Virus record (IMG/VR): IMGVR_UViG_3300009788_000311
Location: 1 to 22,890 of that record
Origin: a virus
Reading direction: 5' to 3' (one strand)
DNA: 22,890 bases
The translations under genes and the position numbers were made by a program. Under the pieces are notes generated by a model. It was not told the DNA's origin. It worked only from the letters and a program-made list of their open reading frames with translations, and made no database searches. This document shows positions 5,303 through 19,712 of this stretch, in pieces (the first letter of the stretch is position 1; each line of letters begins with the position of its first letter).

Positions 5303-6754
5303 ATGGGATATGCATTAGAGAGAGCTATAACTGAAGACCGCATTGAAGCGGGGCGTCGAACTTACCGGAAAGACCGGAAGCTTTGGGACGCTCAGCTAAA
5401 TACCGTTGTCTCCCGCTACTGGGGTGGACACCGCCCACACTTCTTACAGAAGATCTTTCTATCTTGTAAACAGGATCGTGAAGTCTTCTTCGGTGGCGCG
5501 GCGGGTGGCGGGAAGTCTGACGCGCTTCTCATGGGCGCTCTGGAGTACATGAACATTCCCGGATACTCCTCATTGATCCTCAGACGAACCTATGCGCAGT
5601 TGGGTAAGGCTGATTCGATCATGTTCCGCGCTCAACAATGGTTGGCGAAGTATCCGGAGATTCGATGGAACGAACAGAAGCATCAGTTCCTGTGGCCGAA
5701 CGGCGCGACCCTCGAATTCGGTCATCTTCAATACGATAAGGATTGCTACAACTACGACGGACCCGCTTACCAATACGTCGCCTTCGATGAGTTAACTCAG
5801 TTCACAGAGTATCAATACAAGTTCCTCTTTGGACGTGTTCGCCGACCGAGTCGAGGTCTTCTATCGAAGGTTCCTCTCCGGGTCCGTGGGGCGTCTAATC
5901 CGGGCGGTATTGGACATGATTGGGTTAAGGGGCGTTTCGTCACGAAAGAGACAGCGGTCGCTCCTTTCATCCCGGCGCTGATTGCGGACAACCCTTCTCT
6001 TGACGCGGTAGCTTATCATCGAATGCTGGCAGAGCTTCCGCCTATTCTCCGGAAGCAACGCGAAGAAGGTGACTGGGAAGTAACTCCGGACGGTCTGATC
6101 TTTCAGTCCGAATGGTTTCAGGACTATGTCGATCAAGCTCCTAAAGACTGCTATCGCTTTCGCTTCTGGGATCTGGCAGCAACCGATAAGAAGGACGCTG
6201 ATTACACTGTCGGCGCTCTCGTCGCAATGGATGGGCGTGGAGATATCTTCATCGAAGATATTGTTCGTGGCCAATGGAATCCCGGCAAGGTCGAGCGAGT
6301 GATTCAAGCGACTGCGCAAGCGGACGGGAACGGCGTTAAAATCCGAATAGAGCAGGAGCCCGGCGCTTCCGGAAAGCTAACGATAGGAAACTTTGCACGG
6401 CTACTGATCGGCTATGACTTCCAGGGCATCCCGTCGAGCGGTGCGAAGGTGACGCGCTGGACTCCTCTCGCGTCGGCGGCGAACAACGGACTTGTGAAGA
6501 TTGTCAATGCACCTTGGAATCATGACTTCATCTCGGAGCTTGTAAATGTTCCGGAAGCTGGACATGATGATCAGGCGGATGCAGCTTCCGGCGCGTTCCT
6601 CCAGTTAGCAAATAATCGACCTGTCGCAGTCGGCGTCTCTCGTGTTCGCGACAAAAAGAAAGCGGAACCTGAAGAGACCACTATCGAGAAGGACGTTCGA
6701 GAACTACTCAAGCAATCAATGAAGAACAAGGACCGAGAGAAGGTGAGCGTATGA
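5303..6754 (+). CDS. Terminase large subunit
   Basis: ATP-driven motor and nuclease that packages phage DNA through the portal. In the 483 residues: Walker A GGAAGGGKS (64-72), Walker B VAFDE (159-163), coupling motif SNPGG (about 198-202), and nuclease acidic residues at RFWDLA (D290), RIEQEPG (E350/E352) and HDDQADA (D422-D426). Length is normal for the family. ATG 5303 has a poor SD, but the next in-frame starts would cut the N-terminal helical region. No small terminase is found beside it. It overlaps the sigma-like gene by ATGA, so the two are probably translated together. Confidence 0.93.
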   Translation: MGYALERAITEDRIEAGRRTYRKDRKLWDAQLNTVVSRYWGGHRPHFLQKIFLSCKQDREVFFGGAAGGGKSDALLMGALEYMNIPGYSSLILRRTYAQLGKADSIMFRAQQWLAKYPEIRWNEQKHQFLWPNGATLEFGHLQYDKDCYNYDGPAYQYVAFDELTQFTEYQYKFLFGRVRRPSRGLLSKVPLRVRGASNPGGIGHDWVKGRFVTKETAVAPFIPALIADNPSLDAVAYHRMLAELPPILRKQREEGDWEVTPDGLIFQSEWFQDYVDQAPKDCYRFRFWDLAATDKKDADYTVGALVAMDGRGDIFIEDIVRGQWNPGKVERVIQATAQADGNGVKIRIEQEPGASGKLTIGNFARLLIGYDFQGIPSSGAKVTRWTPLASAANNGLVKIVNAPWNHDFISELVNVPEAGHDDQADAASGAFLQLANNRPVAVGVSRVRDKKKAEPEETTIEKDVRELLKQSMKNKDREKVSV

Positions 6755-7410
6755 TAACGATTCCTCAATCACTGAACCTTAACTCGGAAACGGACGACTA
6801 CAAGGAAGATGGTCCGGAAGTCGTTCCTTCCGGAAGGTCCCAAGTACAAACGCTTGTCGAAGACAACGGTGGAAAGTTACGCGATGTCCTCCCCTTTGTA
6901 CTCTCGATTGTACAGCGCGTGAAGAAGACAAACAATATCGGGAACGTCACACACGAAGAGATGGTCGCGGTTGCTCTGGCGGCTCTTGCGAAGTGTCGTT
7001 ATCGCTTGAAACCGAAGAGCGGGAAATTGACGACTTACGCTTATCGAGCAGTTAAAGGAGCTATCCAAGACTTCATCGCAGCAGAGCTTCGACACTATGG
7101 GAAAGTAACTCCGGTCAATCCTATCGTGTTCCATTCGTTGCAGGCTTCGAATCACTTCGAGGAGAAGCTCTCAAACAAGCGGCTCTTTACGCGAGTTCTC
7201 GACGCGCTGGAACAGATCGAACCGCTGAAAGCTTACATTGTCCGGAAGCATTTCCTCGATGGCGTCCAAGAGTATGTTCTCGCGAAAGAGCTAGGTCTGA
7301 CGACTCAGAACATCTCGTCTATTCGCAGAGAAGCTTTCGCAGACATCCGCGCGATAATGGGCGCGACGGCGACTGGCACGGTTCAGTGGGTAGCGAATCA
7401 CGACAATTAA
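6751..7410 (+). CDS. Sigma-70-family-like RNA polymerase sigma factor
   Basis: The 219-residue product shows a sigma region 2-like segment (about 47-112), with HEEMVAVALAALAKCRYRL then GKLTTYAYRAVKGAIQDFI, comparable with the 'F(S/T)TYA..W/R.V+.AI' core that binds the -10 element. A region 4-like segment (about 146-202) has a helix-turn-helix, LAKELGLTTQNISSIRREAF, which would contact the -35. Region 3 is short or absent. It overlaps TerL by 4 bases and precedes the portal gene, an odd place for a transcription factor. It may direct polymerase to late promoters. Alternatives are a degenerate sigma-like regulator or a small-terminase substitute using the HTH. Confidence 0.75.
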   Translation: MITIPQSLNLNSETDDYKEDGPEVVPSGRSQVQTLVEDNGGKLRDVLPFVLSIVQRVKKTNNIGNVTHEEMVAVALAALAKCRYRLKPKSGKLTTYAYRAVKGAIQDFIAAELRHYGKVTPVNPIVFHSLQASNHFEEKLSNKRLFTRVLDALEQIEPLKAYIVRKHFLDGVQEYVLAKELGLTTQNISSIRREAFADIRAIMGATATGTVQWVANHDN

Positions 7411-8819: not shown

Positions 8820-10700
8820 ATGATATTCCTTGCGACTCCGCTCTCTCAACTTCCGACAGAGGAAGTCTCAGTTGCTACTCTTCCGGAAGAGATTCAGAAT
8901 TGGATTAAGTCTGTCTACCGCGATTGTTCTCCATTCTTTGAGCTTCCGGAGAGAGTGAGCTTCCGGATGGTTCGCTCTGTTCTTAAATGGAAAGCAATCG
9001 ACGCGGAGAGACGACCGTTAGAGGCGAAGTGGGGAGAGCGTCTCGCGGACGACTTCGAGCGATGGGGAAGAGCGGTCGGTCGAGTGTACACACGAACGGA
9101 ACGGATCGGCGACGCGCTCGACGTTGCGGACGATCTGATCCGGATACAGTTCCGGAATGAACTCGCTCTTCTGTGGGTTGAGGTCGGGAAGAAGTTCTAC
9201 CGAAGCACGGAAGCTGACATTCTCGGTAAGGCGATCTCAGACAACTTCACTGAACTAGATACACTCGATGACGCAGAGTTTCAGGCGTATGTCTCCCGCG
9301 CGGTCGCTCAGAAGGTGACAGCGGTCGCGGGTTCAACAAAGCGGGCGATAGCGGAGACAATCGAGCGCGGACTTCGAGACGGCGACTCGATTAGAGATAT
9401 CGTTGGCAAGCTTCAGTCAGGACTCGCGTTCGGAAGACATCGCGGGTTCTTGATCGCGCGGACGGAAGTCATTGGAGCTTCGAACGGAGCAACTCATTTC
9501 GCTAACGGAAAGCACTACGACAGGGCGACAACGGAGAAGGAATGGTTAGCAACGCGAGACGGGCGCGTTCGAGCGTCTCACAGTGCGGCGAACGGGCAGC
9601 GTGTCGGCTTCTCCGAGACATTCTCAGTCGGTCATGCTCAGCTTATGTTTCCGGCTGATACCGAATCCGGCGCGGGACATCCGGAAGAAGTGATCAACTG
9701 TCGTTGTACTCTGCTCTATCACACAACTGGAACCGGGACAACGAGTCCAACCGGAAGGGCTCCGCGTCGGCGTCGTGTTCCGGGCGCTCCCGGCTCTCCC
9801 TCACAAGTGGCAGTGGAAGAGATTACAGCGGCTTCAGTGCGTCGGCAAGTGATTGACGCGCTAGAAGACGTAGGGAAAGAGATCGAAGCCTTAAAGGATA
9901 TCCATAGGGGTTTGATCAATCGAACGAACAAAGCACTAGCCAATTACAAGCGTGTCCGCACACCGGAGAATCTAGAGGTTTACAACGCACTGTTCCAGGA
10001 AGCAACGGACATCGGGAAGCGACTCCCGAAGATGTACAAAAAGAGCGCGGATGAGTTTTTGAAGATTTGGAATCCTTCCGGAAAGAAGCGGACTAAGATC
10101 GAGTACGTTAAGGATCAGTTCGGAAAGGGGCGCTTCAAACAAGCAAACTTTGACGAGAGCAAAAGGTTCATGGAAGGTTTAGGCGGTCTTCCAGATCAGA
10201 AAGAACTGAAGATCCAATGGCGAAAGGTTGACGCACGGGACAGACATCGAGCGTCTCAGTACGATGGCGACGCGCATATCAAGCAACCGGATGGAAGCTA
10301 CAAGCGAGAGCATCGCTCGACGATAAAGCTTGATACACATCATACAGCGGAAACCTACATCCATGAGACGGGTCACGCCTTTGATGCAAACTCGAAAGAG
10401 TTCTCTGACAAGGTAGAAGCGCACTACAAAAAGCGGACGAAGGGCGAACCTCTGGAGAAGCTCTCGGACCTGACCGGCAACCCGAATTATAAAGACACTG
10501 AGGTCGCGCGGCGTGATCAGTGGATAACGGCGTATGAGGGAAAGGATTATACTGCTATGGGGATTCGGAACAAGTCAGGAAACTATGCTTCTGAGGTTAC
10601 GAGTATGACCGTTCAACAACTTTATGAGAACCCGGCACGTCTTGCGCTGCAAGATGAGGATACCTTTGATTTCTTCTGGAATCTGTTCGTAGGACCCTAG
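8820..10700 (+). CDS. MuF-type minor head protein with C-terminal metallopeptidase-like domain
   Basis: Residues about 1-300 are a phage head morphogenesis (Mu gpF/SPP1 gp7) domain, with the signature EWLATRDGRVRASH, then FPADT and VINCRCTLLY. Such proteins sit in the capsid near the portal. A Pro/Arg/Ser-rich linker (about 305-330) and a basic helical stretch follow. The C-terminal ~170 residues hold YIHETGHAFD, with the zinc-binding HExxH at 515-519, and a candidate third ligand Glu at 592 (ASEVTSM), as in gluzincins. At 626 residues it is much longer than plain MuF proteins. The extension may be an injected effector or a head-maturation protease; both are inference. The stop overlaps the convergent leftward gene by 3 bases. 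Confidence 0.88.
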   Translation: MIFLATPLSQLPTEEVSVATLPEEIQNWIKSVYRDCSPFFELPERVSFRMVRSVLKWKAIDAERRPLEAKWGERLADDFERWGRAVGRVYTRTERIGDALDVADDLIRIQFRNELALLWVEVGKKFYRSTEADILGKAISDNFTELDTLDDAEFQAYVSRAVAQKVTAVAGSTKRAIAETIERGLRDGDSIRDIVGKLQSGLAFGRHRGFLIARTEVIGASNGATHFANGKHYDRATTEKEWLATRDGRVRASHSAANGQRVGFSETFSVGHAQLMFPADTESGAGHPEEVINCRCTLLYHTTGTGTTSPTGRAPRRRRVPGAPGSPSQVAVEEITAASVRRQVIDALEDVGKEIEALKDIHRGLINRTNKALANYKRVRTPENLEVYNALFQEATDIGKRLPKMYKKSADEFLKIWNPSGKKRTKIEYVKDQFGKGRFKQANFDESKRFMEGLGGLPDQKELKIQWRKVDARDRHRASQYDGDAHIKQPDGSYKREHRSTIKLDTHHTAETYIHETGHAFDANSKEFSDKVEAHYKKRTKGEPLEKLSDLTGNPNYKDTEVARRDQWITAYEGKDYTAMGIRNKSGNYASEVTSMTVQQLYENPARLALQDEDTFDFFWNLFVGP

Positions 10701-10966
10701 TAGATAAGTTCCGGAAGCTCTTCCTTCTGGGATTCTTCAATGACGTAGGAACCGGGGAAAGCTTCGACAACGGCGCGGACTCGATTGTCTTCCAGGTCCG
10801 GACTGTACTCGGGATCGCCTTTATTGAGAAGTGGACTCGCGGACGCGGGTCCATACAAGCGGTTCAGGTGACGAGCGACAAATGAGTCTCGAAGAACAGA
10901 CCATCGCCCTTCGTTCCAGACCGCTTCGACGGTCACGGTATCCAAAGCTAACATAACCTTTGTCAT
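10697..10966 (-). CDS. Hypothetical protein (89 aa), last gene of leftward insert
   Basis: Unrecognised. The product begins MTKVMLALDTVTVEAVWNEG, has a central basic part (RDSFVARHLNRLYG), and an acidic C-terminus (EESQKEELPELIY). It is the distal gene of a four-gene leftward operon from the cassette at 11517. AGGAG lies 12 bases before the ATG, a rather long spacing. Its stop overlaps that of the MuF gene on the other strand, a tail-to-tail junction that marks the left edge of the insert. Confidence 0.68.
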   Translation of the reverse strand: MTKVMLALDTVTVEAVWNEGRWSVLRDSFVARHLNRLYGPASASPLLNKGDPEYSPDLEDNRVRAVVEAFPGSYVIEESQKEELPELIY

Positions 10967-10981
10967 GACTTGATCATACTC

Positions 10982-11224
10982 CTAGTGTCGCGTGTTGAAC
11001 TTCTCTCCGTCCTCGAAGACGGAGACCTGAAGTTCGAAGTACTTGTGATTGACGAAGAGCGGAAACGTGACGAGCGCAAGCGGCTGAACCGCGCGGAAGG
11101 GATCGAACTCGGGATAGGATACGACCGCGTCTTCCGGCTTGCAGAGAAGGGCGGCGCGTTGGCGACGTGAGAGAGTTAGCGCGGCGCGGGAGCGGATAAC
11201 GTTGCTGATATCGTTTGAAGTCAT
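10982..11224 (-). CDS. Hypothetical protein (80 aa) in leftward insert
   Basis: Unrecognised. The N-terminus is helical and basic (NVIRSRAALTLSRRQRAALL), followed by likely beta segments (LALVTFPLFVNHKYFELQVSV). There is no membrane helix. AAGGA lies eight bases upstream of ATG 11224, and the ATG overlaps the stop of the 34-codon gene before it (ATGA). It is followed 15 bases later by the gene at 10697-10966. The arrangement supports a genuine operon member of unknown function. Confidence 0.7.
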   Translation of the reverse strand: MTSNDISNVIRSRAALTLSRRQRAALLCKPEDAVVSYPEFDPFRAVQPLALVTFPLFVNHKYFELQVSVFEDGEKFNTRH

Positions 11225-11325
11225 CGGGAGAGTCCTTTCAGTTTCTGAGAGACGCGGTAGTCGTAGGACGGGACGAGCAAGAACTCGACCACATCGAGGA
11301 TTAGATTCTCAAGTTTGCTCAGCAT
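11221..11325 (-). CDS. Very small protein (34 aa) in leftward insert
   Basis: Reads MLSKLENLILDVVEFLLVPS and ends VSQKLKGLSR. The N-terminal half is an amphipathic or weakly hydrophobic helix. Support comes from a strong SD (AGGAG, eight bases before the ATG) and from an ATGA overlap with the next gene, which fits exactly between two neighbours. No family is recognisable at this length. It might act at the membrane with the 59-residue protein upstream. Confidence 0.6.
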   Translation of the reverse strand: MLSKLENLILDVVEFLLVPSYDYRVSQKLKGLSR

Positions 11326-11336
11326 CTCAGCAACTC

Positions 11337-11516
11337 CTAGCGGGAAAGACGGGTGCAAGCCGAACCGTTCTCATTCAGGTAAACTGCGGAAGCGTTCGCG
11401 GCAGTATTTCCAGGAAGGTTCCGGATGATTGAAGGCGCGAAGTAGAAAACCGCGAATGCGAAACCGAAGAAGATTCCCTCGATCAGTTCGGCGTTTGCTG
11501 CTAATGTCGTTTCCAT
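11337..11516 (-). CDS. Small membrane protein (59 aa), first gene of leftward insert operon
   Basis: Begins METTLAANAELIEG, followed by one hydrophobic, Phe-rich segment (about residues 15-32, FFGFAFAVFYFAPSI), then a polar C-terminus ending ACTRLSR. The ATG at 11516 lies six bases after TATAGT of a complete cassette, so it is probably leaderless; METT fits the cassette start pattern and equals that of the gene at 2625-3203. It heads an operon of four leftward genes set within the late rightward genes. Small membrane proteins in such inserts often alter host or superinfection properties, but nothing here proves it. Confidence 0.7.
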   Translation of the reverse strand: METTLAANAELIEGIFFGFAFAVFYFAPSIIRNLPGNTAANASAVYLNENGSACTRLSR

Positions 11517-11571
11517 GATCTAACTATAAACCTTCCGGAAGGATCTGTCAAGAGAAATCTTCCGGAAAGTT
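11517..11571 (-). promoter_or_regulatory. Leaderless promoter with paired TTCCGGAA operators (insert copy)
   Basis: TTGACA (complement of 11546-11551), 17 bp spacer with TTCCGGAA (11533-11540), TATAGT (11523-11528), TAGATC, ATG at 11516; second palindrome 11560-11567. The spacer begins GATCC where the early-array copies have GAAGC or AAAGC. It is 8 kb from the early array but otherwise equal. Confidence 0.87.
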
Positions 11572-11589
11572 AAGAAAAGTTTTTCGAGG

Positions 11590-11736
11590 TTAAAACAGAC
11601 CTTCTCTTTCCATGGCGACGAACTCCGGTTTGAACTCCTCATAGGCGGGAGTTCCGTAGGCGGGGAAGTCGTCGCTCTAGAGAATGACCATCGGCGCGGG
11701 TTCAGCGGCGACTGCGATGTTCCATGTTTTTGTCAT
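11590..11736 (-). pseudogene. Small gene interrupted by an in-frame amber codon
   Basis: A start at 11736 has GGAGG ten bases upstream and overlaps the preceding stop as ATGA. The frame reads MTKTWNIAVAAEPAPMVIL, then TAG (11677-11679), then 28 further sense codons beginning SDDFPAYGTP and ending MEREGLF, TAA. The composition after the TAG is protein-like and the gap to the next cassette is filled exactly. A single G-to-A change from TGG (Trp) would explain it. Other readings are a sequencing error, suppression, or a real 19-residue peptide. TAG ends many other genes here, so general recoding is unlikely. Confidence 0.55.
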
Positions 11737-11960
11737 TTTCTGTTAACCTCCAGTGCTTCAATCATGACCTTTCGGGAGACGCGCTTTCTGTCGAGGTAGA
11801 AGGTCGAACGGTAGTGGTTACGCTGGAAGCGGGTCCGCGCTCCTACTGGGACTACATAGCACTCAAAGCGTCCTTCGCGGTATACACCGTAGTTGCAAGC
11901 GTCGGCGTCGGCGTCTTTCTTCGCTTTCTCGATTAGTTCGATTAGAGTAGGCGTCTTCAT
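11733..11960 (-). CDS. Hypothetical protein (75 aa) in leftward insert
   Basis: Unrecognised basic protein. The N-terminal helix (TLIELIEKAKKDADADACNYG) is followed by a segment rich in Arg and Tyr (FQRNHYRSTFYLDRKRVSRK). The start at 11960 follows the -10 box TAAGCT by six bases, with no SD, so it is probably leaderless. It is the first gene of a second leftward operon in the insert; the second gene is the amber-interrupted one. It begins MKTPT rather than M-E-x-T. Confidence 0.7.
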   Translation of the reverse strand: MKTPTLIELIEKAKKDADADACNYGVYREGRFECYVVPVGARTRFQRNHYRSTFYLDRKRVSRKVMIEALEVNRK

Positions 11961-12015
11961 GTTTAAAGCTTATACCTTCCGGAAGGATCTGTCAAGAGAA
12001 ATCTTCCGGAAAGTT
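11961..12015 (-). promoter_or_regulatory. Leaderless promoter with paired TTCCGGAA operators (insert copy)
   Basis: TTGACA (complement of 11990-11995), 17 bp spacer with TTCCGGAA (11977-11984), -10 TAAGCT (11967-11972), TTAAAC, ATG at 11960; second palindrome 12004-12011. It differs most from the other copies around the -10 and probably works more weakly. Confidence 0.8.
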
Positions 12016-12058
12016 AAGAAAAGTTTTCGAGGGAATCCGGGGACAGTCCGGAAGGACT

Positions 12059-12090
12059 CGCGCGACTCCTGAGCGGAACCGATAATTAAC
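12059..12090 (+). promoter_or_regulatory. Candidate late promoter, CGCGCG-N16-GATAATTAAC
   Basis: CGCGCG (12059-12064), 16 bases, GATAATTAAC (12081-12090), 46 bases upstream of the protease gene. The same two blocks with the same spacing recur at 18426-18457, also directly after a leftward insert. CCGATAA resembles the -10 of sigma-28-group promoters (GCCGATAA), while no TTGACA is present. It would restart rightward late transcription. Confidence 0.6.
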
Positions 12091-12136
12091 GAACGTATAG
12101 GGGCGGAATCGCTCCACTAGGAAGGTCACAGACTAT

Positions 12137-13090
12137 ATGCTCCGAAAAAAGATTGACCCTGACTTTACAAAGGTCACAGTCGTCGAGGAAGAAGGCTCAT
12201 CTTCCGGCTACCTCGAAGGCTACGCCAGTGTCTTCAACAATGTTGACCTCGGAGGGGATGTCGTTCGGAAAGGCGCTTTCAAGAAAACGATCAGAGAGCG
12301 ACTGAAGAAAGGGATGATCCTTCTCTACGACTCTCACGCGGTCTATGAGGGAACAAGCGCGGTTATCGGCGCTGTCACAGCGGCGGAAGAGCGCGACGAA
12401 GGTCTTTGGTTCCATGCTTCCTTCTCCGCTGTAGCGCGGGCGCAAGATGTCCGTACGAAGGTCAAAGAGAAGATCCTTCGCGCTCTGAGCTTTGGTTACG
12501 ACGTGATCAAGAGCGCTCCGTCGACTGAGTTCGGGGAAGATGTTACTGAACTGGTAGAGCTTAGGCTCTGGGAAATCTCAGTCGTCCCGTGGGGAATGAA
12601 TCCGAAGGCGGCGTCTGATGTTGTCAAAGGGATTGGTCTCGGACAAGAGTTCGAGTTCGCGGCGAAAAATCATCCCTTCGATCCTGTCGGCGCTCGGAAG
12701 CGCGTCGCGGAATGGGCGGAGAACGATCCGTTCCTTTACTCGAAGGCGTTCATATGGGCAGACGAAGCGAACGATCAGTCTCCTCTCGGGTATGCTCTCC
12801 AGGTCGTCGATATTGTGGACGGCGAACCGAAGTACATTTTGAACGCGGCGAAGACGGCTCTCACCAGAACTCGCGGCGACGAAGAAGCTGTCTGGAAGAA
12901 GGACAGCGAAGAGATCACATCTGACCTGAAGACTCTCTATCAGAAGGTCGATGAAAAATTTCCGGAAGTAGAGACTCCGGATACCGAATTCAAGGGTCTG
13001 TCCGAATTGTCGAAAGGCGTTCAGGACTTCGCCCTCGCAACAACCCTCCGGAAACTTCGAGAGGGTATGGGTACATTGTCCGCGAAATAG
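12137..13090 (+). CDS. Prohead maturation protease (HK97/S78-like) with C-terminal extension
   Basis: Cuts the capsid scaffold domain during head maturation. The N-terminal ~170 residues match the family: GYLEGYASVFNNVDLGGDVV, catalytic His in YDSHAVY (H67), catalytic Ser in RALSFGY (S118), and ELRLWEISVVPWGMNPKA. The protein is 317 residues, longer than the usual ~200; the extension (from about 175) is charged and includes VGARKRVAEWAEND and a coiled-coil-like end. An extension of this kind could serve as scaffold, but this is inference. AGGAAGG lies about 11 bases before ATG 12137. It is the first gene after the leftward insert and its candidate promoter. Confidence 0.9.
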   Translation: MLRKKIDPDFTKVTVVEEEGSSSGYLEGYASVFNNVDLGGDVVRKGAFKKTIRERLKKGMILLYDSHAVYEGTSAVIGAVTAAEERDEGLWFHASFSAVARAQDVRTKVKEKILRALSFGYDVIKSAPSTEFGEDVTELVELRLWEISVVPWGMNPKAASDVVKGIGLGQEFEFAAKNHPFDPVGARKRVAEWAENDPFLYSKAFIWADEANDQSPLGYALQVVDIVDGEPKYILNAAKTALTRTRGDEEAVWKKDSEEITSDLKTLYQKVDEKFPEVETPDTEFKGLSELSKGVQDFALATTLRKLREGMGTLSAK

Positions 13091-13215
13091 GCGGATGACC
13101 TCGGTCACTGTTCGGACACTTCTTCCGGAAGCCGAATGAGCAAGCCGACAGAGGGTTGAGCAGCCGATCCTTGATCACTGCGAGAGAGAGAGACTTCGAA
13201 ACAGGAAAGGGAAAC

Positions 13216-14514
13216 ATGGACGTACAAGCGGAACTGAAAACTATCAATGAGACTTTCGCAGGGTTCAAGACTCTGAACGAGGAAGCTCTCGCGGAAGTCA
13301 AAAAGTATGGCACTGTCAGCGGCGATCTTGAAGCCAAAATGACGAAGATGTCCGACGACATGGACGCTTCCGAAGTGAAGCTGAACGAGCGGCTCACGGC
13401 TATCGACGCGAAGGCGGAGAAGCTGGAAGTCATGGAGAAACAGATTGAGGACTTCAAGGCTTTCGAGTCCGAAGTTCGGTCTCGCTCCAATCATAACGGT
13501 GGCGCTGGCGGTGACGATGGTGACACCGTTAAGGCGATGCGGAAGTCGATCTTCTGGAAGGCGATTCGCGGTGGACTCACTCCGGACCTGATCGACCTTC
13601 ACAAGACCATCACCGACGACGAGAAGGAATGGCTCGGTGTCTCTGCTCAGAAAGCAATGATTGTCGGCGACGACGAAGCGGGCGGCTACCTCGCTCCCGA
13701 AGAGTACGTGAACGAGATCATCGCGGACACGGTCGAGTTTTCTCCGATTCGGAGTCTTGCTCGAATCCGGACGACTTCTCGGAAGGCTGTCACGATTCCG
13801 AAGAAGACCGGATCAATCTCCGCGTCTTGGGTTGAAGAGACCGGCACTCGCGGCGATTCCGGAAACCCGACTTACGGAATGGAGCGTCTCCAGTCCTACG
13901 AAATGCATGGACTGATCAAGGTCTCAAAGCAGGAACTCGAAGATGCGGCGTTCAACGTCGAAGGCTTCATTCGCGAAGAGCTTTCCGAACAGTTTGGCTC
14001 TGCCGAAGGAACCGCGTTTGTTACCGGAACCGGAACGGGTCAACCCCAGGGCGTTCTTTCGAATGCTTCAGTCACTTCAGTCAATTCCGGTCATGCGACT
14101 CAGATCACGGCTGATGGTCTGATTGATCTGTACTTCGAGCCGAAAGAGATTTACGCGAACAATGGCGTCTTCGTCATGGCGCGTTCGACTCTGAAAGCGA
14201 TCCGGAAACTGAAGGACGGGCAGGGTCAGTACATCTGGACTCCTGGTTTCAAGACGGAAGCCAAACCGGCGACGATCCTCGACCGTCCTTATGTGGTCGC
14301 TCCCGATATGCCGACTATCGCAGCTTCAGCTTATCCGGTCGTCTTTGGCGACTGGCGGCGGGCGTACTACATCCTCGACCGGGTCGTGATGGAAATCATC
14401 ACTGATCCGTATTCGAGTAAGGCGACTGGCATGATCGAGATCAGCGCTCGTAAGCGTGTTGGTGGACAGGTCGTTGCTCCGTTCGCGATCAAGAAACTGA
14501 AGATTTCGGCGTAG
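13216..14514 (+). CDS. Major capsid protein (HK97 fold) with N-terminal delta/scaffold domain
   Basis: Forms the icosahedral shell. The 432-residue product has an N-terminal coiled coil (about 1-95, TFAGFKTLNEEALAEVKKYG onward) acting as built-in scaffold. A Gly-rich linker (NHNGGAGGDDGD) follows, then the HK97 core: GGYLAPEEYVNEII, ARIRTTSRKAVTIPK, SASWVEETG, GFIREELSEQFG, and GTGTGQPQGVL. The protease next door would remove the N-terminal part. AGGAAAGG before ATG 13216 fixes the start; the frame is open further upstream without an SD. There is no sign of truncation. Confidence 0.93.
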   Translation: MDVQAELKTINETFAGFKTLNEEALAEVKKYGTVSGDLEAKMTKMSDDMDASEVKLNERLTAIDAKAEKLEVMEKQIEDFKAFESEVRSRSNHNGGAGGDDGDTVKAMRKSIFWKAIRGGLTPDLIDLHKTITDDEKEWLGVSAQKAMIVGDDEAGGYLAPEEYVNEIIADTVEFSPIRSLARIRTTSRKAVTIPKKTGSISASWVEETGTRGDSGNPTYGMERLQSYEMHGLIKVSKQELEDAAFNVEGFIREELSEQFGSAEGTAFVTGTGTGQPQGVLSNASVTSVNSGHATQITADGLIDLYFEPKEIYANNGVFVMARSTLKAIRKLKDGQGQYIWTPGFKTEAKPATILDRPYVVAPDMPTIAASAYPVVFGDWRRAYYILDRVVMEIITDPYSSKATGMIEISARKRVGGQVVAPFAIKKLKISA

Positions 14515-14520
14515 GTCCTA

Positions 14521-14556
14521 CGCCTTTTGACGGGACCTTTCCGGAAGGTTAGGTCC
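14521..14556 (+). other. Hairpin between capsid and next gene, containing TTCCGGAA
   Basis: GGGACC and GGTCCC (about 14532-14556) flank TTCCGGAA (14539-14546), so the transcript could form a stem with a second inner fold. No T-run follows. It may stabilise the 3' end of the capsid mRNA, or may simply carry a dispersed palindrome. Confidence 0.4.
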
Positions 14557-14581
14557 CATTCAAAAACAGGAGAAAATGAAA

Positions 14582-15082
14582 ATGTCTTCAGTCTTAAATT
14601 CTTTTGATCAAGCGGACGCATCAGGCGACAACAAACTGAATCTCGGTGGAACCGTCGATGTCACGGGAACCATGCAGCGTCACGGCGCAAGCGTCGGCGA
14701 CGCACTGACCTACACGAAAGCGGTTCGGATCACGCTTGCGGAACTGATCGCAGGATACGAACTCGTCGCGGCTGTCACTGGTAAGTCGATCCGGGTCACG
14801 AACTACTATCTTCGGATCATCGGCGGCGCGGCTACCGCTGCGGATGACATTCGCATTCAGGACAACAACGGGACTCCCGTTATCGTCGTTACGGCGGCTG
14901 TGGCGGCTCTGACGGAGAATGCAGAGGTCGCGGGTCTCGGACCCGCTATCGCGAACGTCACGAAGGGCGCGGGATGGATGGCGCTTCTCACGGCGTCGAA
15001 GGCGCTCGATATCGTGGAGACCGGGACAACCATGACGACGCTGACTCACGTTGACGTTATCGTTCAGTATCAGATCGGCTAA
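14582..15082 (+). CDS. Hypothetical structural protein (166 aa), possibly capsid decoration
   Basis: Low-charge, Ala/Thr/Val/Gly-rich protein of likely beta structure (KSIRVTNYYLRIIGGAATAA, PVIVVTAAVAALTENAEVAG). It resembles small head- or fibre-associated proteins in composition only; no family is recognised. AGGAG lies nine bases before ATG 14582 but only three before an ATG at 14576, so I prefer the later start. Its position after the capsid gene suggests a head decoration or accessory protein. Confidence 0.78.
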   Translation: MSSVLNSFDQADASGDNKLNLGGTVDVTGTMQRHGASVGDALTYTKAVRITLAELIAGYELVAAVTGKSIRVTNYYLRIIGGAATAADDIRIQDNNGTPVIVVTAAVAALTENAEVAGLGPAIANVTKGAGWMALLTASKALDIVETGTTMTTLTHVDVIVQYQIG

Positions 15083-15147
15083 TTCCTTCCGGAAGGATTC
15101 GATCAAGTAGAAGAGAGAAAATTCGAAAAGAGGAAGGAAAAAGAACC

Positions 15148-15579
15148 ATGTTCAAACTTGCAGGCAATGTCAAACTGAACCGGGCGATTGACTACGCTCA
15201 GATCACCGCATCCAAAACCGGCGACGTGATTATCGACACTCAGGGCTACGACGATATCTTCTTCATCGTTCACGTCCATGCAGCGACTACCGCTGACGCT
15301 GATCACTACTTCACCATGAAGATGCAAGAGGGAGACGCGGCGGCTCTTGGTGACGCGGCTCTTGTCGCGGACGGAACCACGTATCCGAACCGCTACTTTG
15401 GCGAGTCGCCTTCAGATCGAGCACTCGATCTCACGACTCAGGCGGACGGGTTCATTGTGTTTGGTGTCCGTCTTCACAAGCGGTACGTCCGGCTCATGGC
15501 AATCGAGACCGGAACCTCTGACGTCACGATCAGTGCGGTCGCAGTCCTTGGAAATCCGAAGACCGCTCCGACTGTCTAA
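15148..15579 (+). CDS. Hypothetical structural protein (143 aa), possibly head decoration
   Basis: Beta-rich protein (DVIIDTQGYDDIFFIVHVHA, GFIVFGVRLHKRYVRLMAIE) with the look of small phage structural proteins that sit on or beside the capsid; no family is assigned. AAGGAAAAAGAACC before ATG 15148 is a good ribosome site. A 14 bp perfect palindrome, TCCTTCCGGAAGGA (15084-15097), lies in the gap before it. It ends 84 bases before the connector gene. Confidence 0.78.
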   Translation: MFKLAGNVKLNRAIDYAQITASKTGDVIIDTQGYDDIFFIVHVHAATTADADHYFTMKMQEGDAAALGDAALVADGTTYPNRYFGESPSDRALDLTTQADGFIVFGVRLHKRYVRLMAIETGTSDVTISAVAVLGNPKTAPTV

Positions 15580-15608
15580 CGAAGTCGCCTTTCGCGACGG
15601 TCCAGATG

Positions 15609-15638
15609 AGATCTCGCGCCTTTCGGGGCGCGGGGTCT
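15609..15638 (+). terminator. Strong hairpin, possible terminator or processing site
   Basis: A 12-pair stem (15609-15620 with 15627-15638, core CGCGCC/GGCGCG, outer pairs include G-U) with a six-base loop. A smaller stem, GTCGC/GCGAC, lies just upstream (about 15585-15600). No clear T-run follows, so full termination is doubtful. It could lower expression of the connector genes after the abundant head proteins. Confidence 0.45.
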
Positions 15639-15663
15639 TGTCTATTGCTGTACTGTGGGAGTT

Positions 15664-16356
15664 ATGCCGATCTTTGATCAAATCTCTCTAGCTGAAAGTT
15701 CTTCCGGAAGGGCGCGGTCGCGGGGCGTCGATGTCACGCGGACTGTCAATCCGGAATTCAATCCGGTGACAGCGGCGGATGTAATCGCTCACCTGAAGCT
15801 ACCTTCCGGAAGTTCCGAAACAAACATCGATAGGATTATTGGGGCGGTCGTGGGCGCGATTGAGAAGTATACGAATCGCGGTTATGTTAAACAGACGATC
15901 CGACAGATTCATGATCAAATCGGACCAATGGTTAAGCTTTGGGTTCGTCCCGTCCTAGAGGTCGTTTCTATCCAGACAATTGCTTCTATGGCGGCGGATG
16001 ACCTTGTTTTGATGTCCTCTGACGACTATGCGGTTTCCATCGATAAGGACAAGATTCGACCGCGTTCGGCGTGGCCGACACATCGCGGCTTTTCTTCCTT
16101 CGTCGTCACCTTCAATGTCGGATACAACGATCATCCGGATAGTCCTTCAGGTCCAGAGATTATAACGGCACAAGCGGCGGTCCCGACTGATGTTCACGAA
16201 GCGGTCCTTCAGTGGATTGGTCATCTCTACAACAACCGAGAGGGACAATCTGGAGAAATGAAATATGAGGTCATCGCGAAACGGATTGGAATCATTCCCG
16301 CAAATGTCGCGATCTTGCTTGAAGGCTACCTCGACCGGAGACTGACGCTCTCATGA
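15664..16356 (+). CDS. Head-tail connector protein (gp6-like)
   Basis: Adaptor ring below the portal. The family pattern is seen: NPVTAADVIAHLKLPSGS near the N-terminus, IDRIIGAVVGAIEKYTNRGY, a long beta region (VRPVLEVVSIQTI), VTFNVGYND, and a C-terminal helix, DVHEAVLQWIGHLYNNREG. The length (230 aa) is normal. The start is uncertain: ATG 15664 has GGGAG too close, and GTG 15655 adds three residues with no SD. It overlaps the next gene as ATGA. Confidence 0.85.
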   Translation: MPIFDQISLAESSSGRARSRGVDVTRTVNPEFNPVTAADVIAHLKLPSGSSETNIDRIIGAVVGAIEKYTNRGYVKQTIRQIHDQIGPMVKLWVRPVLEVVSIQTIASMAADDLVLMSSDDYAVSIDKDKIRPRSAWPTHRGFSSFVVTFNVGYNDHPDSPSGPEIITAQAAVPTDVHEAVLQWIGHLYNNREGQSGEMKYEVIAKRIGIIPANVAILLEGYLDRRLTLS

Positions 16357-16730
16357 AACGGACGAAGAAGAGTCGCGCGTCAACCGGAGATCTTCGTTTC
16401 TATCTTGCTCTTGCACGTCCGGAAACTACTCCCGATGATATCGGCGGGAGCCCTCGACAATCATGGACGCTGATCACTGAGCTATGGTGCGACATAATGC
16501 CGCGCTCCGCAAAGGAACGCATGATCGGCGCTCAGCTTCAGGAGATGACTTCTCACTTGATCGAGTCCCACTATTGGGAAGACTGGAAAAAGGGAGACCG
16601 GCTCTCCTACACGGACGCGAACACGGACAAGACACACTACTTCCGGATACTCGCACGGCTTGATATAAATCAGTCGGCTACCCGGCTCTTCTGGGAAGCT
16701 GAAGAGTTCGACGGGTCCAGTGCCGAATAA
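16353..16730 (+). CDS. Head closure / head-tail adaptor protein
   Basis: The 125-residue product resembles the SPP1 gp16/HK97 gp7-like head-tail joining family: GDLRFYLALARPETTPDDIGG, SWTLITELWCDIMPRS, a central TSHLIESHYWEDWKKGDRLSY (compare 'H.I..RY...I..g.Ri.') and a C-terminal strand, TRLFWEAEE. It plugs the connector after packaging. The start overlaps the previous stop (ATGA), and its end overlaps the next gene by 11 bases. Confidence 0.82.
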   Translation: MKRTKKSRASTGDLRFYLALARPETTPDDIGGSPRQSWTLITELWCDIMPRSAKERMIGAQLQEMTSHLIESHYWEDWKKGDRLSYTDANTDKTHYFRILARLDINQSATRLFWEAEEFDGSSAE

Positions 16731-17277
16731 TTCACCTATCGAAGCAAAGCTCATCGGCGCAACCGCACTGAAGCGGAAGTTCAGTCTCATGGATCAGCGA
16801 GTCAGAGGCGCGATGAAGCGTCTTGTCAATGAGCACTCTCGCAAACTCACGAACCGGGCGAAGAAGGAAGCTCCGGTAGACATGGGTCAGCTCAGAGCGT
16901 CCATACGTCCTCAGTTCTTCTCCAACGGTCTAACCTCTCGAATTGCCACGAACACAGGTTACGCGGCGTTTGTGGAGTACGGAACGGGTCCTCTGGGACG
17001 CATGACCGCAAAGAACACACCGAAAGGTTACGTTCACTCTGTCTCGCTCAAACGTCCTCCGCCAGACGTCATCTTCGAGTGGGTCTGGCGGAACCGTAAG
17101 AACATGGGCGGCTCGGGATGGACGAAGTCACAAGCGAAGGGCGTCGCGTTCCTCATTGGAAGAGCAATCGGAAAGCGCGGTCTTCGAGCGCGGGCATTCA
17201 TGGGACCGGCTTACATCGAGACGAAAAAAGAGTTTGAGCGGGACGTTCGGCGCGAGTTCAAAAGGACGGCGAAATAA
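16720..17277 (+). CDS. HK97 gp10-like tail component
   Basis: Begins with GTG 16720, inside the end of the preceding gene. The 185-residue product shows the gp10 pattern: an N-terminal helix, LIGATALKRKFSLMDQRV, then RAKKEAPVDMGQLRASI and GYAAFVEYGTGP. These proteins act at the head-tail junction or in tail assembly. The C-terminus is basic with GRAIGKRGLRARAFMGPAY. No strong SD is seen before the GTG, and there is no alternative start before the conserved core other than internal codons. Confidence 0.85.
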   Translation: MPNNSPIEAKLIGATALKRKFSLMDQRVRGAMKRLVNEHSRKLTNRAKKEAPVDMGQLRASIRPQFFSNGLTSRIATNTGYAAFVEYGTGPLGRMTAKNTPKGYVHSVSLKRPPPDVIFEWVWRNRKNMGGSGWTKSQAKGVAFLIGRAIGKRGLRARAFMGPAYIETKKEFERDVRREFKRTAK

Positions 17278-17699
17278 TGACAGCGATCAAAGGCGGCTCT
17301 TCTCTCTACGGCGTGTCACTCGCGATCTTCCAGAAGGTCTCGGTCGCGTTCCAGGATGTTGGCGAAGTCTTTGACGGATTCCTTCCGGAAGAATTAGACT
17401 CGGTTGATTTTCCATACGCGATTATCGAAGAGATGACCGAAGGGCAAGAGAACCTTTTGAACCGCGCGGTTCGAATGACCGTCGTTACGATCAAGATCTA
17501 CACAGCGTATCGTGGAACGAAACAAGCGAAGCAACTCGCGGGGAAACTTGTAGACGCACTCGAAGAGATGGACCTCTCTCCTGAAGAAGGATGGGTCTTT
17601 CCGAAGACGAAGTATCTCGATACTCATTTCCTACGGGAAGACGACGTCCGCTTCACAGCGATCATGAGATTCGAGGTCATGGCGGAGAAGCTGGCATGA
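17277..17699 (+). CDS. Tail terminator / tail completion protein (DUF3168-like)
   Basis: Likely caps the tail tube and fixes tail length. The 140-residue product has the layout of the family: SLYGVSLAIFQKVSVAFQDV, FDGFLPEE, FPYAIIEE, then the alternating strand-helix part VVTIKIYTAYRGTKQAKQLAGKLVD and a final strand, TAIMRFEVMAEK. The ATG overlaps the preceding stop by one base (TAATG), a coupled arrangement. It overlaps the next gene as ATGA. Confidence 0.82.
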   Translation: MTAIKGGSSLYGVSLAIFQKVSVAFQDVGEVFDGFLPEELDSVDFPYAIIEEMTEGQENLLNRAVRMTVVTIKIYTAYRGTKQAKQLAGKLVDALEEMDLSPEEGWVFPKTKYLDTHFLREDDVRFTAIMRFEVMAEKLA

Positions 17700-18106
17700 G
17701 TGAAGACGAAGAACAACTCGGACCGGGGGAAGAGTGGGAATACTACGACGAAGACGTTCCGGAAGAAGCACCGACCGCGCCTCAATCTCAAGAGGAAATT
17801 GATCAGGAACGCGGTTACTCTGAACTCTCTTGGAAGAACTTCCCGCTCTTCCAGTGTCTCTCCTGTAAGTTCAATCACATCTCTCCGGATGGAAGCGAAG
17901 ACAACATAAAAGCGCACGTCTGGAAGTTTCATCAGATGGCGGAGAATCTCGCTATGAACGCGGCGCTCGAAAGCACGAAGCGTCCGGTCGAAGCAGAACT
18001 CTATGATCCTTCCGGAAGACTGATTGAAGAACGCGACGCGACTGAAGAAGAACGCGCGGAAGATTCCTTTCTTAACTTCGATCCTCCGAAGACCCTCAAC
18101 GGCTAA
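17696..18106 (+). CDS. Hypothetical acidic protein with CCHH zinc-finger-like motif (136 aa)
   Basis: The first ~45 residues are strongly acidic (DEEQLGPGEEWEYYDEDVPE). A central segment FQCLSCKFNH ... AHVWKFHQ has a C-x2-C pair and an H-x4-H pair about 18-20 residues later, a plausible C2H2-like zinc site. The C-terminus is again acidic. Position between tail terminator and tail tube suggests a tail or regulatory role, but zinc fingers are unusual there. The ATG at 17696 overlaps the previous stop. Its stop overlaps the convergent leftward gene by 2 bases. Confidence 0.75.
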   Translation: MSEDEEQLGPGEEWEYYDEDVPEEAPTAPQSQEEIDQERGYSELSWKNFPLFQCLSCKFNHISPDGSEDNIKAHVWKFHQMAENLAMNAALESTKRPVEAELYDPSGRLIEERDATEEERAEDSFLNFDPPKTLNG

Positions 18107-18402
18107 CTGACGAACTGTCTCCAGTCCTCGCACATATCCCGTGCGGTCGTGGGGTGCTTTACGTCATCCACAAAAGGCATTATCGGCTGAAGCTGTTTCC
18201 CCATTGTGAGCACGGTCAAGAATAGATCAAACCCGTTATTCAATTTGTCGAGTTCATCTGGCGAAAGCTTGTACCGCACCGTGACCGCTCCGCTATCGCG
18301 GGACATCACAGCGGGGAGCGTTTCATACTCCACTTGATCTTCTGCGATCTTAATCTTCCGGAAGGAATCGTCTCCTACAAACACTAGATCTTGAGGCGTC
18401 AT
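18103..18402 (-). CDS. Hypothetical protein (99 aa) on the opposite strand of the tail genes
   Basis: Unrecognised soluble protein: MTPQDLVFVGDDSFRKIKIA at the start, a strand region (AVTVRYKLSPDELDKL), then LFLTVLTMGKQLQPIMPFVD. The frame is open further upstream, but ATG 18402 follows TATTCT by six bases, so a leaderless start is likely; no TTGACA or paired TTCCGGAA cassette precedes it. It is convergent with the gene before and divergent from the one after, the signature of an inserted extra gene. A single TTCCGGAA lies inside its 5' coding part (18356-18363). Confidence 0.68.
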   Translation of the reverse strand: MTPQDLVFVGDDSFRKIKIAEDQVEYETLPAVMSRDSGAVTVRYKLSPDELDKLNNGFDLFLTVLTMGKQLQPIMPFVDDVKHPTTARDMCEDWRQFVS

Positions 18403-18457
18403 GGTTTTAGAATACGCGCTTCTCCCGCGCGGGTTCTTTCCGGACCCGATAATTAAC
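18403..18457. promoter_or_regulatory. Divergent promoter: leaderless leftward box and CGCGCG-N16-GATAATTAAC rightward
   Basis: Leftward: TATTCT (complement of about 18409-18414), AAAACC, ATG at 18402. Rightward: CGCGCG (18426-18431), 16 bases, GATAATTAAC (18448-18457), 48 bases before the gene at 18506. The CGCGCG lies inside the palindrome CCCGCGCGGG (18424-18433). The rightward element equals the one at 12059-12090 in both blocks and spacing. Confidence 0.58.
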
Positions 18458-18505
18458 ACTCGAAGAAGGTTCGCGGACGCGGACCGGAAGGAAGGATCAG
18501 GATCT

Positions 18506-18856
18506 ATGGCAAGAGCAACTCTAGTAAAAACGACCGCTCCGGGTCCGTACACGTCTGATGGCGTCGCAGTCACTTGGACAGCGGCGGTCGTTGCTGACAA
18601 AGAGGAATTCGTCATGGAAGGTAATGACTTGCTCCTAGTTCGCAACGAAGACGCATCCCCGCACACGTTCACTATCACGTCGGCGGAAGATCGCATGGGG
18701 CGAGTGGGTCACATTACCGCTCAGTCTCTTGCCGCGTCGGCGTGGGCGGTTCTCGGACCTTTCAAGAAACTGACCGGATGGCAACAGTCAACCGGCGTCC
18801 TCTATATCGAAGCGGACGATATCAATATTGAGTGGGCGGTTATCAAGCTCGCGTAG
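18506..18856 (+). CDS. Hypothetical structural protein (116 aa), paralogue A
   Basis: Beta-rich, low-charge protein with TTAPGPYTSDGVAVTWTAAV, EEFVMEGNDLLLVRNED, HTFTITS and WAVLGPF. It is clearly related to the next gene: both have APG.Y...G...T, A....EEF.M.G..LL...N.D..PHT.TI.S, a V.GPF-type segment, G-W....G.L..EAD...IE..VI+. Such small repeated beta proteins before a tail tube may be tail or virion accessory proteins. AAGGA upstream of ATG 18506 fits an SD. It is the first gene after the candidate promoter at 18426. Confidence 0.75.
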   Translation: MARATLVKTTAPGPYTSDGVAVTWTAAVVADKEEFVMEGNDLLLVRNEDASPHTFTITSAEDRMGRVGHITAQSLAASAWAVLGPFKKLTGWQQSTGVLYIEADDINIEWAVIKLA

Positions 18857-18874
18857 AAGGGAGATTCCGGAAAG

Positions 18875-19228
18875 ATGCCAAGACAAGCACACACACCAGA
18901 CGCGGCTCCGGGTAGCTATCCTACTGCGGGCATCGTCTTGACTCAGACAGCGGCGGATGCCGCAAACCTTGAGGAATTCAAAATGACCGGGCGTGAACTT
19001 TTGATCGCGTGGAATCCGGACGTTGGTCCTCACACCGTTACTATCGACTCGGTTGCAAATCAGCAAGGGCGGACACTAGACGTCACAGCGGATTCAATCG
19101 CGGCGGGAGCAACTCACGTTTATGGACCCTTCACTACAAAGCTCGGATGGGTTCAGGGAGACGGAACGCTAAACTTTGAAGCGGACTCCGCCTTAATCGA
19201 ATTCAGCGTTATTCGGATGCCGACCTGA
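18875..19228 (+). CDS. Hypothetical structural protein (117 aa), paralogue B
   Basis: Tandem paralogue of the gene before it. It has the same order of features: AAPGSYPTAGIVLTQTAADA, EEFKMTGRELLIAWNPD, PHTVTIDSVANQQGR, HVYGPFTTKLGWVQGDGTLN, FEADSALIEFSVIR. Identity looks moderate, spread along the entire length, with no gaps of note, so the duplication is not recent. AAGGGAGA lies ten bases before ATG 18875. It is followed by the tail tube gene, with which it is probably cotranscribed. Confidence 0.75.
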   Translation: MPRQAHTPDAAPGSYPTAGIVLTQTAADAANLEEFKMTGRELLIAWNPDVGPHTVTIDSVANQQGRTLDVTADSIAAGATHVYGPFTTKLGWVQGDGTLNFEADSALIEFSVIRMPT

Positions 19229-19277
19229 TCGAAGATTCCGGAGAGAAGATCTTTCCAGACAGGAGATATAAAACAGA

Positions 19278-19712
19278 ATGGCAAGTCCAGCTATTTCCGC
19301 CTTCGGAACACTACTCCAGATCGGCGACGGCGCGACTCCCGAAGTTTTCGCAACGGTCGCAGAGCTACGGACTATCTCGGGTCCGTCTCTGAACGCCGAT
19401 ACAATCGACGTCACAACTCACAACACGGCGACACCTTTCCGGCGTTTCATCTCCGGACTGATCGACGGTGGAGATGTCACGTTCGATATCAATTTCATCC
19501 CTCAAGAGCCGACGCACTCCTACAGCGCGGGGATCTTGAAAGACGTGGTCAATCGGACTGCTCGAAACCTGAAGATCGTCTTTCCGGACAGTGGCAACAC
19601 TGAATGGATCATCCCAGTTATCTTCGTGAACTTCGAGGTCTCGTCCGACCCCGCCGATGTTCTCATGGCTTCAATCACTGCAAAGGTCGCAGGTCCGCCT
19701 ACGTTCGCGTAA
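19278..19712 (+). CDS. Major tail tube protein
   Basis: The 144-residue product fits the siphovirus tail tube family: ISAFGTLLQIGDGATPEVFA, VAELRTISGPSLNADTIDVT, THNTATPFRRFISGLIDGGDV (a typical 'G..D.G.V' turn), FDINFIP, then IPVIFVNFEVSSDPADVL and ITAKVAGPP. It polymerises into the tail tube around the tape measure protein. AGGAGA lies 11 bases upstream of ATG 19278. Its place before the chaperones and tape measure is standard gene order. Confidence 0.87.
   Translation: MASPAISAFGTLLQIGDGATPEVFATVAELRTISGPSLNADTIDVTTHNTATPFRRFISGLIDGGDVTFDINFIPQEPTHSYSAGILKDVVNRTARNLKIVFPDSGNTEWIIPVIFVNFEVSSDPADVLMASITAKVAGPPTFA

Follow-up and report, generated by a model that had tools for sequence, protein, structure and literature searches.

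The closest described systems for the locus analysed here are phages that encode their own sigma factor. In Salmonella phage 7-11, the phage sigma possesses region 4 and reads a bipartite signal, GTAAtg-(16)-aCTA, before late genes, whereas the phiEco32 sigma, which lacks region 4, reads a single element (excerpted text of PMC8948821). From this, the argument was made for phage 7-11 that a sigma factor with region 4 is expected to recognize a bipartite promoter (PMC8948821, same excerpt). Pairwise comparison of gaps is the promoter-finding approach presented in the excerpted text of PMC4331800, and it was used here as well. A further point of reference is the bacterial sigma-28 (FliA) promoter, for which the consensus TAAAGTTT-N11-GCCGATAA is given in the excerpted text of PMC7286023.

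The stretch of DNA analysed, hereafter the window, comprises the 22,890 bases of virus record IMGVR_UViG_3300009788_000311. An exact search of the whole 22,890-base window found the element CGCGCG-N16-GATAATTAAC twice, on the + strand, at 12059-12090 (copy 1) and 18426-18457 (copy 2). A reading of the letters alone, the sequence-only reading, had claimed that both blocks and the 16-base spacing are identical and that each copy stands some 46-48 bases before a rightward gene, just past leftward genes, and this is borne out: the end of GATAATTAAC lies 46 nt from the ATG at 12137 and 48 nt from the ATG at 18506, while the leftward genes upstream start at 11960 and 18402, respectively. When the rest of the genome was searched for the element, as that reading had suggested, no third copy appeared within the window at up to three mismatches, and none of 100 shuffled sequences gave two matches. 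The terminase, portal and sigma-like genes, which stand together, have no copy upstream of them in the window. Of three divergent left/right junctions, two carry the element, both preceding structural genes, and the third (3203/3292) has a promoter of the GCGTATT type described below.

One related virus was found, IMGVR_UViG_3300009788_000242 (30,797 bases; hereafter G001), whose major capsid protein and protease are 90% and 88% identical to those of the window and whose main aligned DNA blocks are 78-86% identical. Absence of the element from a close relative with the same gene order was to count against the sequence-only reading; G001, the sole relative found, has the same gene order and retains both sites, copy 1 exactly and copy 2 except for a single base of the first block, and GATAATTAAC occurs only twice in this 30.8-kb record, at precisely these sites. 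Aligned on the second block, the four sites in the two viruses share the invariant GCGCG-N14-CCGATAATTAAC. The first block is better given as GCGCG, since GGCGCG stands at the second site of G001, and the second block is longer than first written, comprising CCGATAATTAAC; in the window, these invariant parts occupy 12060-12064 and 12079-12090 in copy 1, and 18427-18431 and 18446-18457 in copy 2, the only two sites of this class. All four have the same orientation and lie 46-50 nt from a rightward start codon. At copy 1, stretches of 22 and 26 identical bases flank eight bases that all differ between the viruses, a pattern of two conserved blocks around changed bases that fits two contacted blocks separated by a free spacer. 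At copy 2, the indel in G001 falls before GCGCG, leaving the distance to the -10 intact. Copy 2 would be coding if the longer open reading frame 18401-18856 were used; this was rejected, as in G001 the frame stops inside the element. Such conservation calls for some caution, since long runs shared by the two viruses also occur in other gaps, one of 38 nt at 15580-15664, which holds the strong hairpin described below, and one of 37 nt at 14515-14575.

The number of distinct viruses stays at two: loci L103 (100% identical to G001 over 8294 nt) and L016 (99.9% identical to the window virus over 5204 nt) are these same viruses and thus bring no independent evidence. Protease or capsid relatives were scanned at 103 loci (1.54 Mb): CCGATAATTAAC was absent, the composite motif matched once when up to two mismatches were allowed, and none of the ORFs of 80 aa or more matched the sigma profile at E 1. 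A search of phage DNA returned no match. In genome contigs, the terminase had no match, and capsid relatives were found at 16 loci with 30-41% identity in alphaproteobacterial records, which serve as a lead to the host only.

Pairs of a 6-mer and a 10-mer at some gap are expected about by chance at this sequence length, so the element might have been a coincidence picked post hoc. Across the window, such pairs at a gap of 14-19 nt are indeed not rare (mean of 1.9 raw hits and maximum of 8 in 60 Markov sequences); the window itself, with leftward promoter repeats masked, gave three overlapping raw hits, all corresponding to the element pair. Near-matches to GATAATTAAC with up to two mismatches number 11, about what chance predicts (11.4), and CGCGCG, one of many GC-rich hexamers, occurs 23 times in the window, which makes the first block weak alone. 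Coincidence is nevertheless contradicted by location, register and conservation in the second virus, and, nearly refuted by G001, is very hard to credit. The two divergent gaps are 101 and 102 nt long, and for this pair 3 of 3000 dinucleotide shuffles produced a common 12-mer, as did 8 of 4000 pairs of actual tiles drawn at random from the window. A 12-base run at equal distance from the start codon in both gaps came up in 3 of 6000 shuffles, and a 12-base plus a 6-base run in the same register in 0 of 6000. In viral contigs, CGCGN{16,18}CCGATAATTAAC matched 12 stretches, two of which (L006 and L016) are the two viruses. The ten others were taken as chance matches: eight fall within ORFs of 100 codons or more, and L014 alone is followed, within 160 nt, by the start of an ORF of 60 aa or longer (at +79).

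Both copies precede structural genes. The first gene past copy 1 encodes the head maturation (prohead) protease (12137..13090, +; phrog_80, E 1.2e-36), followed by the major capsid protein (13216..14514, +; phrog_10, E 6e-76) and, further downstream, the connector genes. Past copy 2 stand a small protein (18506..18856, +) with no PHROG match at E 0.001, a weak tail-protein match (18875..19228, +; phrog_16194, E 7e-4), the major tail protein (19278..19712, +; phrog_158, E 4e-14) and another tail protein. Under the mechanism we propose, the two copies would be the -35 and -10 parts of two late promoters of one class, copy 1 starting the head operon (protease, major capsid and connector genes) and copy 2 the tail operon. 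Transcription would then start some 7 nt beyond GATAAT (around 12093 and 18460), giving leaders of 44-48 nt with a Shine-Dalgarno-like stretch: the predicted head-operon leader (12091..12136, +) has the purine-rich, Shine-Dalgarno-like AGGAAGG before its ATG, and the predicted tail-operon leader (18458..18505, +) has a similar purine-rich stretch, both with putative start sites. RNA structure within the two leaders was not supported (z -0.42 and 0.70).

Some features of neighboring genes deserve mention in their own right. A strong hairpin at 15600-15648 (MFE -37.6, z -4.05), kept in G001 and lacking a clear U tract, follows the second gene past the capsid gene and is possibly a terminator or an mRNA end inside the head operon. 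The gene at 4247-5161 encodes a ThyX-type thymidylate synthase (Pfam Thy1, E 1.9e-39) and is followed at 5183-5215 by a strong hairpin that has a T run and resembles an intrinsic terminator (z -5.04). The head morphogenesis protein encoded at 8820-10700 has a long C-terminal extension with HETGH-like residues, ETYIHETGHAFD, suggesting what we take to be a fused metallopeptidase-like domain.

Leftward block 1 (10697..11960, -) varies in content between the two viruses, the window having four ORFs there and G001 six. Its window ORFs share 37, 70, 77 and 69% identity with their G001 partners, as against 88-90% for protease, capsid and terminase. Since this content differs while the adjoining element is constant, the element belongs to the downstream structural module. 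No direct repeats flank this stretch or the second leftward gene (18103..18402, -), which encodes 99 aa without a family match. We therefore abandoned the idea, raised from sequence alone, that the inserts had brought the element with them; a promoter moving with the leftward genes as a mobile cassette is likewise rejected, given the lack of flanking repeats and an element found only on the right side, unchanged. The nearest named capsid is that of Rhizobium phage RHph_X2_25 (39% identity by tblastn, 43% in the alignment), in which no leftward gene and no annotated sigma interrupts the neighboring terminase, portal, protease and capsid genes. From this uninterrupted order, the leftward block was plausibly added to the usual one, and the new rightward start is plausibly its consequence, the order of events being our reconstruction. 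The other half of that earlier idea, a rightward restart promoter after opposing genes, fares well: the element stands at two of three divergent junctions, is kept in G001, lacks TTGACA and precedes a leader with a Shine-Dalgarno-like stretch. Rightward transcription would thus restart where leftward genes interrupt the structural cluster.

Three promoter classes can be distinguished in the genome: TTGACA-N17 leaderless, GCGTATT leaderless, and GCGCG/CCGATAATTAAC with predicted leaders of 44-48 nt. TTGACA-N17-hexamer-N6-ATG, with TTCCGGAA inside the spacer, precedes eight leftward genes in the window and would yield leaderless mRNAs. These near-identical promoters of small leftward genes lie at 379, 880, 1203, 2182, 2606, 3238, 11551 and 11995 (-), the last being TTGACA-N17-TAAGCT (11967..11995, -), 6 nt before the ATG at 11960. 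All eight carry a second TTCCGGAA copy upstream of TTGACA besides that in the 17-nt spacer, and these copies look like a shared operator. G001 likewise has eight leftward promoters of this type whose spacer contains TTCCGGAA, and two further pattern hits without it. In coding and non-coding DNA together, TTCCGGAA is enriched more than 100-fold over expectation from base composition (42 copies against 0.34 in the window, 54 against 0.46 in G001), and TCCGGA has 81 copies against 6.2 expected, an abundance of TTCCGGAA resembling that of iterated palindromes, for instance HIP1 in cyanobacteria. Leaderless promoters of the form GCGTATT(A/C)T-N6-ATG lie at 3277 (+) and 18417 (-) and are conserved in G001 at 3883 and 19938. 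The box of the one at 18417, GCGTATTCT (18409..18417, -), stands 6 nt before its ATG, back to back with copy 2, whose GCGCG block and spacer overlap the region upstream of the box; from this overlap, the late and leftward promoters probably exclude each other.

The sequence-only reading had also supposed a phage sigma-like protein, and one is encoded at 6751-7410 (+), between terminase and portal. Regions 2 (residues ~45-111) and 4 (~147-203) are matched in the proteins of both viruses, that of the window having hits to phrog_351 (E 8e-13), Pfam Sigma70_r2 (E 2e-6) and, over residues 46-200, NCBIfam sigma70-ECF (E 3e-12). Subfamily matches are weak and far under curated cut-offs, to FliA/WhiG in region 2 (E 4e-4; 4e-6 for the G001 copy) and to SigG in region 4. 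Comparison with solved structures was insignificant (best E 0.1 and 0.033, WhiG and FliA), the AlphaFold model is poor (mean pLDDT 48.9), and phage records gave no match to the protein at E 0.01. Three features expected of late promoters read by a phage sigma are thus present: a sigma-like protein with DNA-reading regions encoded by both viruses, a low-copy conserved motif preceding structural genes, and an element unlike the host primary-sigma promoters of the same genome.

Taken together, the element very probably has promoter function. On a non-promoter reading, the copies would instead be bound, in the divergent gaps, by a phage repressor or some other DNA-binding protein. This reading could point to the palindromic core TAATTA, to the position of both copies in such gaps and to the overlap of copy 2 with the upstream part of the leftward promoter; it is improbable, as the conserved unit is asymmetric and bipartite and keeps one orientation and a distance of 46-50 nt to the start codon at four of four sites. 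As to which polymerase reads the element, the absence of TTGACA noted from the letters holds, with at most 2/6 agreement at 16-18 nt, and a promoter scan of 10000-19500 scored neither copy as a sigma-70 promoter. Host primary sigma could still use GATAAT, which matches TATAAT at 5/6, with the help of an activator, from phage or host, that binds on the GC block or further upstream, and the imperfect dyad GACTCGCGCGACTC that contains this block at copy 1, conserved in G001, would be a possible activator site. This arrangement, also compatible with the element's sequence, is a serious contender but unlikely, given the lack of a usable -35, the loss in G001 of the copy 2 dyad CCCGCGCGGG, and the invariance of CCG and TTAAC around GATAAT, beyond what a sigma-70 -10 needs. 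The suggestion of a sigma-28-type promoter survives in part: at all four sites, the -10 octamers ACCGATAA/CCCGATAA match GCCGATAA at 7/8 and stand exactly N11 downstream of the GC block, as in the consensus (PMC7286023, excerpted text), but the -35 octamer shares with TAAAGTTT a single position of eight at one site and none at the other three, so that reading by a host alternative sigma of the FliA type is quite improbable. GGAAC is the ECF-type -35 consensus; such a -35 at copy 1 was rejected, G001 having ACAAAC there.

On balance, we favor two late, leadered promoters read by the phage's own sigma-like protein. What ties this protein to the motif is their co-presence, and its reading of the element is plausible: it would aim host core RNA polymerase at both promoters, region 4 reading GCGCG and region 2 reading CCGATAATTAAC, whereas the eight TTGACA-N17 leaderless leftward promoters would be read earlier by host primary sigma. 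More tentatively, and with considerable doubt, the whole might form a two-promoter late regulon under a phage sigma of new specificity, combining a sigma-28-like -10, CCGATAATTAAC, with the GC-rich -35 GCGCG, switching from host-sigma leaderless early to leadered late mRNAs, and shutting the back-to-back leftward leaderless promoter through copy 2. If the favored reading is right, a sigma and its two target promoters within 23 kb would offer a small system for studying -35/-10 specificity in a divergent sigma, and would show how a phage keeps head and tail genes expressed despite opposite-direction genes in its structural cluster.

Among known systems, phage 7-11, with its sigma SaPh711_gp47, is the closest precedent, sharing a bipartite signal with a 16-nt gap, few copies, late target genes, a sigma with region 4, and opposite-strand genes under host-sigma promoters; it differs in its motif (GTAAtg/aCTA rather than GCGCG/GATAATTAAC), in having eight promoters against two copies here, and in being a podovirus, whereas the present virus has capsid protease and tail-tube genes and a predicted promoter role (PMC8948821, excerpted text). 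Likewise, phiEco32 gp36 is a phage sigma with low-copy, strongly conserved promoters before structural genes, but it reads the single element tAATGTAtA without a -35 and lacks the region 4 present here (PMC8948821, PMC4331800, excerpted texts). Sigma-28 (FliA) promoters resemble the element in the -10 octamer and in geometry, and, with the -35 octamer at 0-1/8, the element is not a member of that class (PMC7286023, excerpted text). A full-text literature search with GATAATTAAC gave, among the matches listed, no phage-promoter paper by title. Read as favored here, the locus would add a new signal sequence to an already familiar type of phage control.
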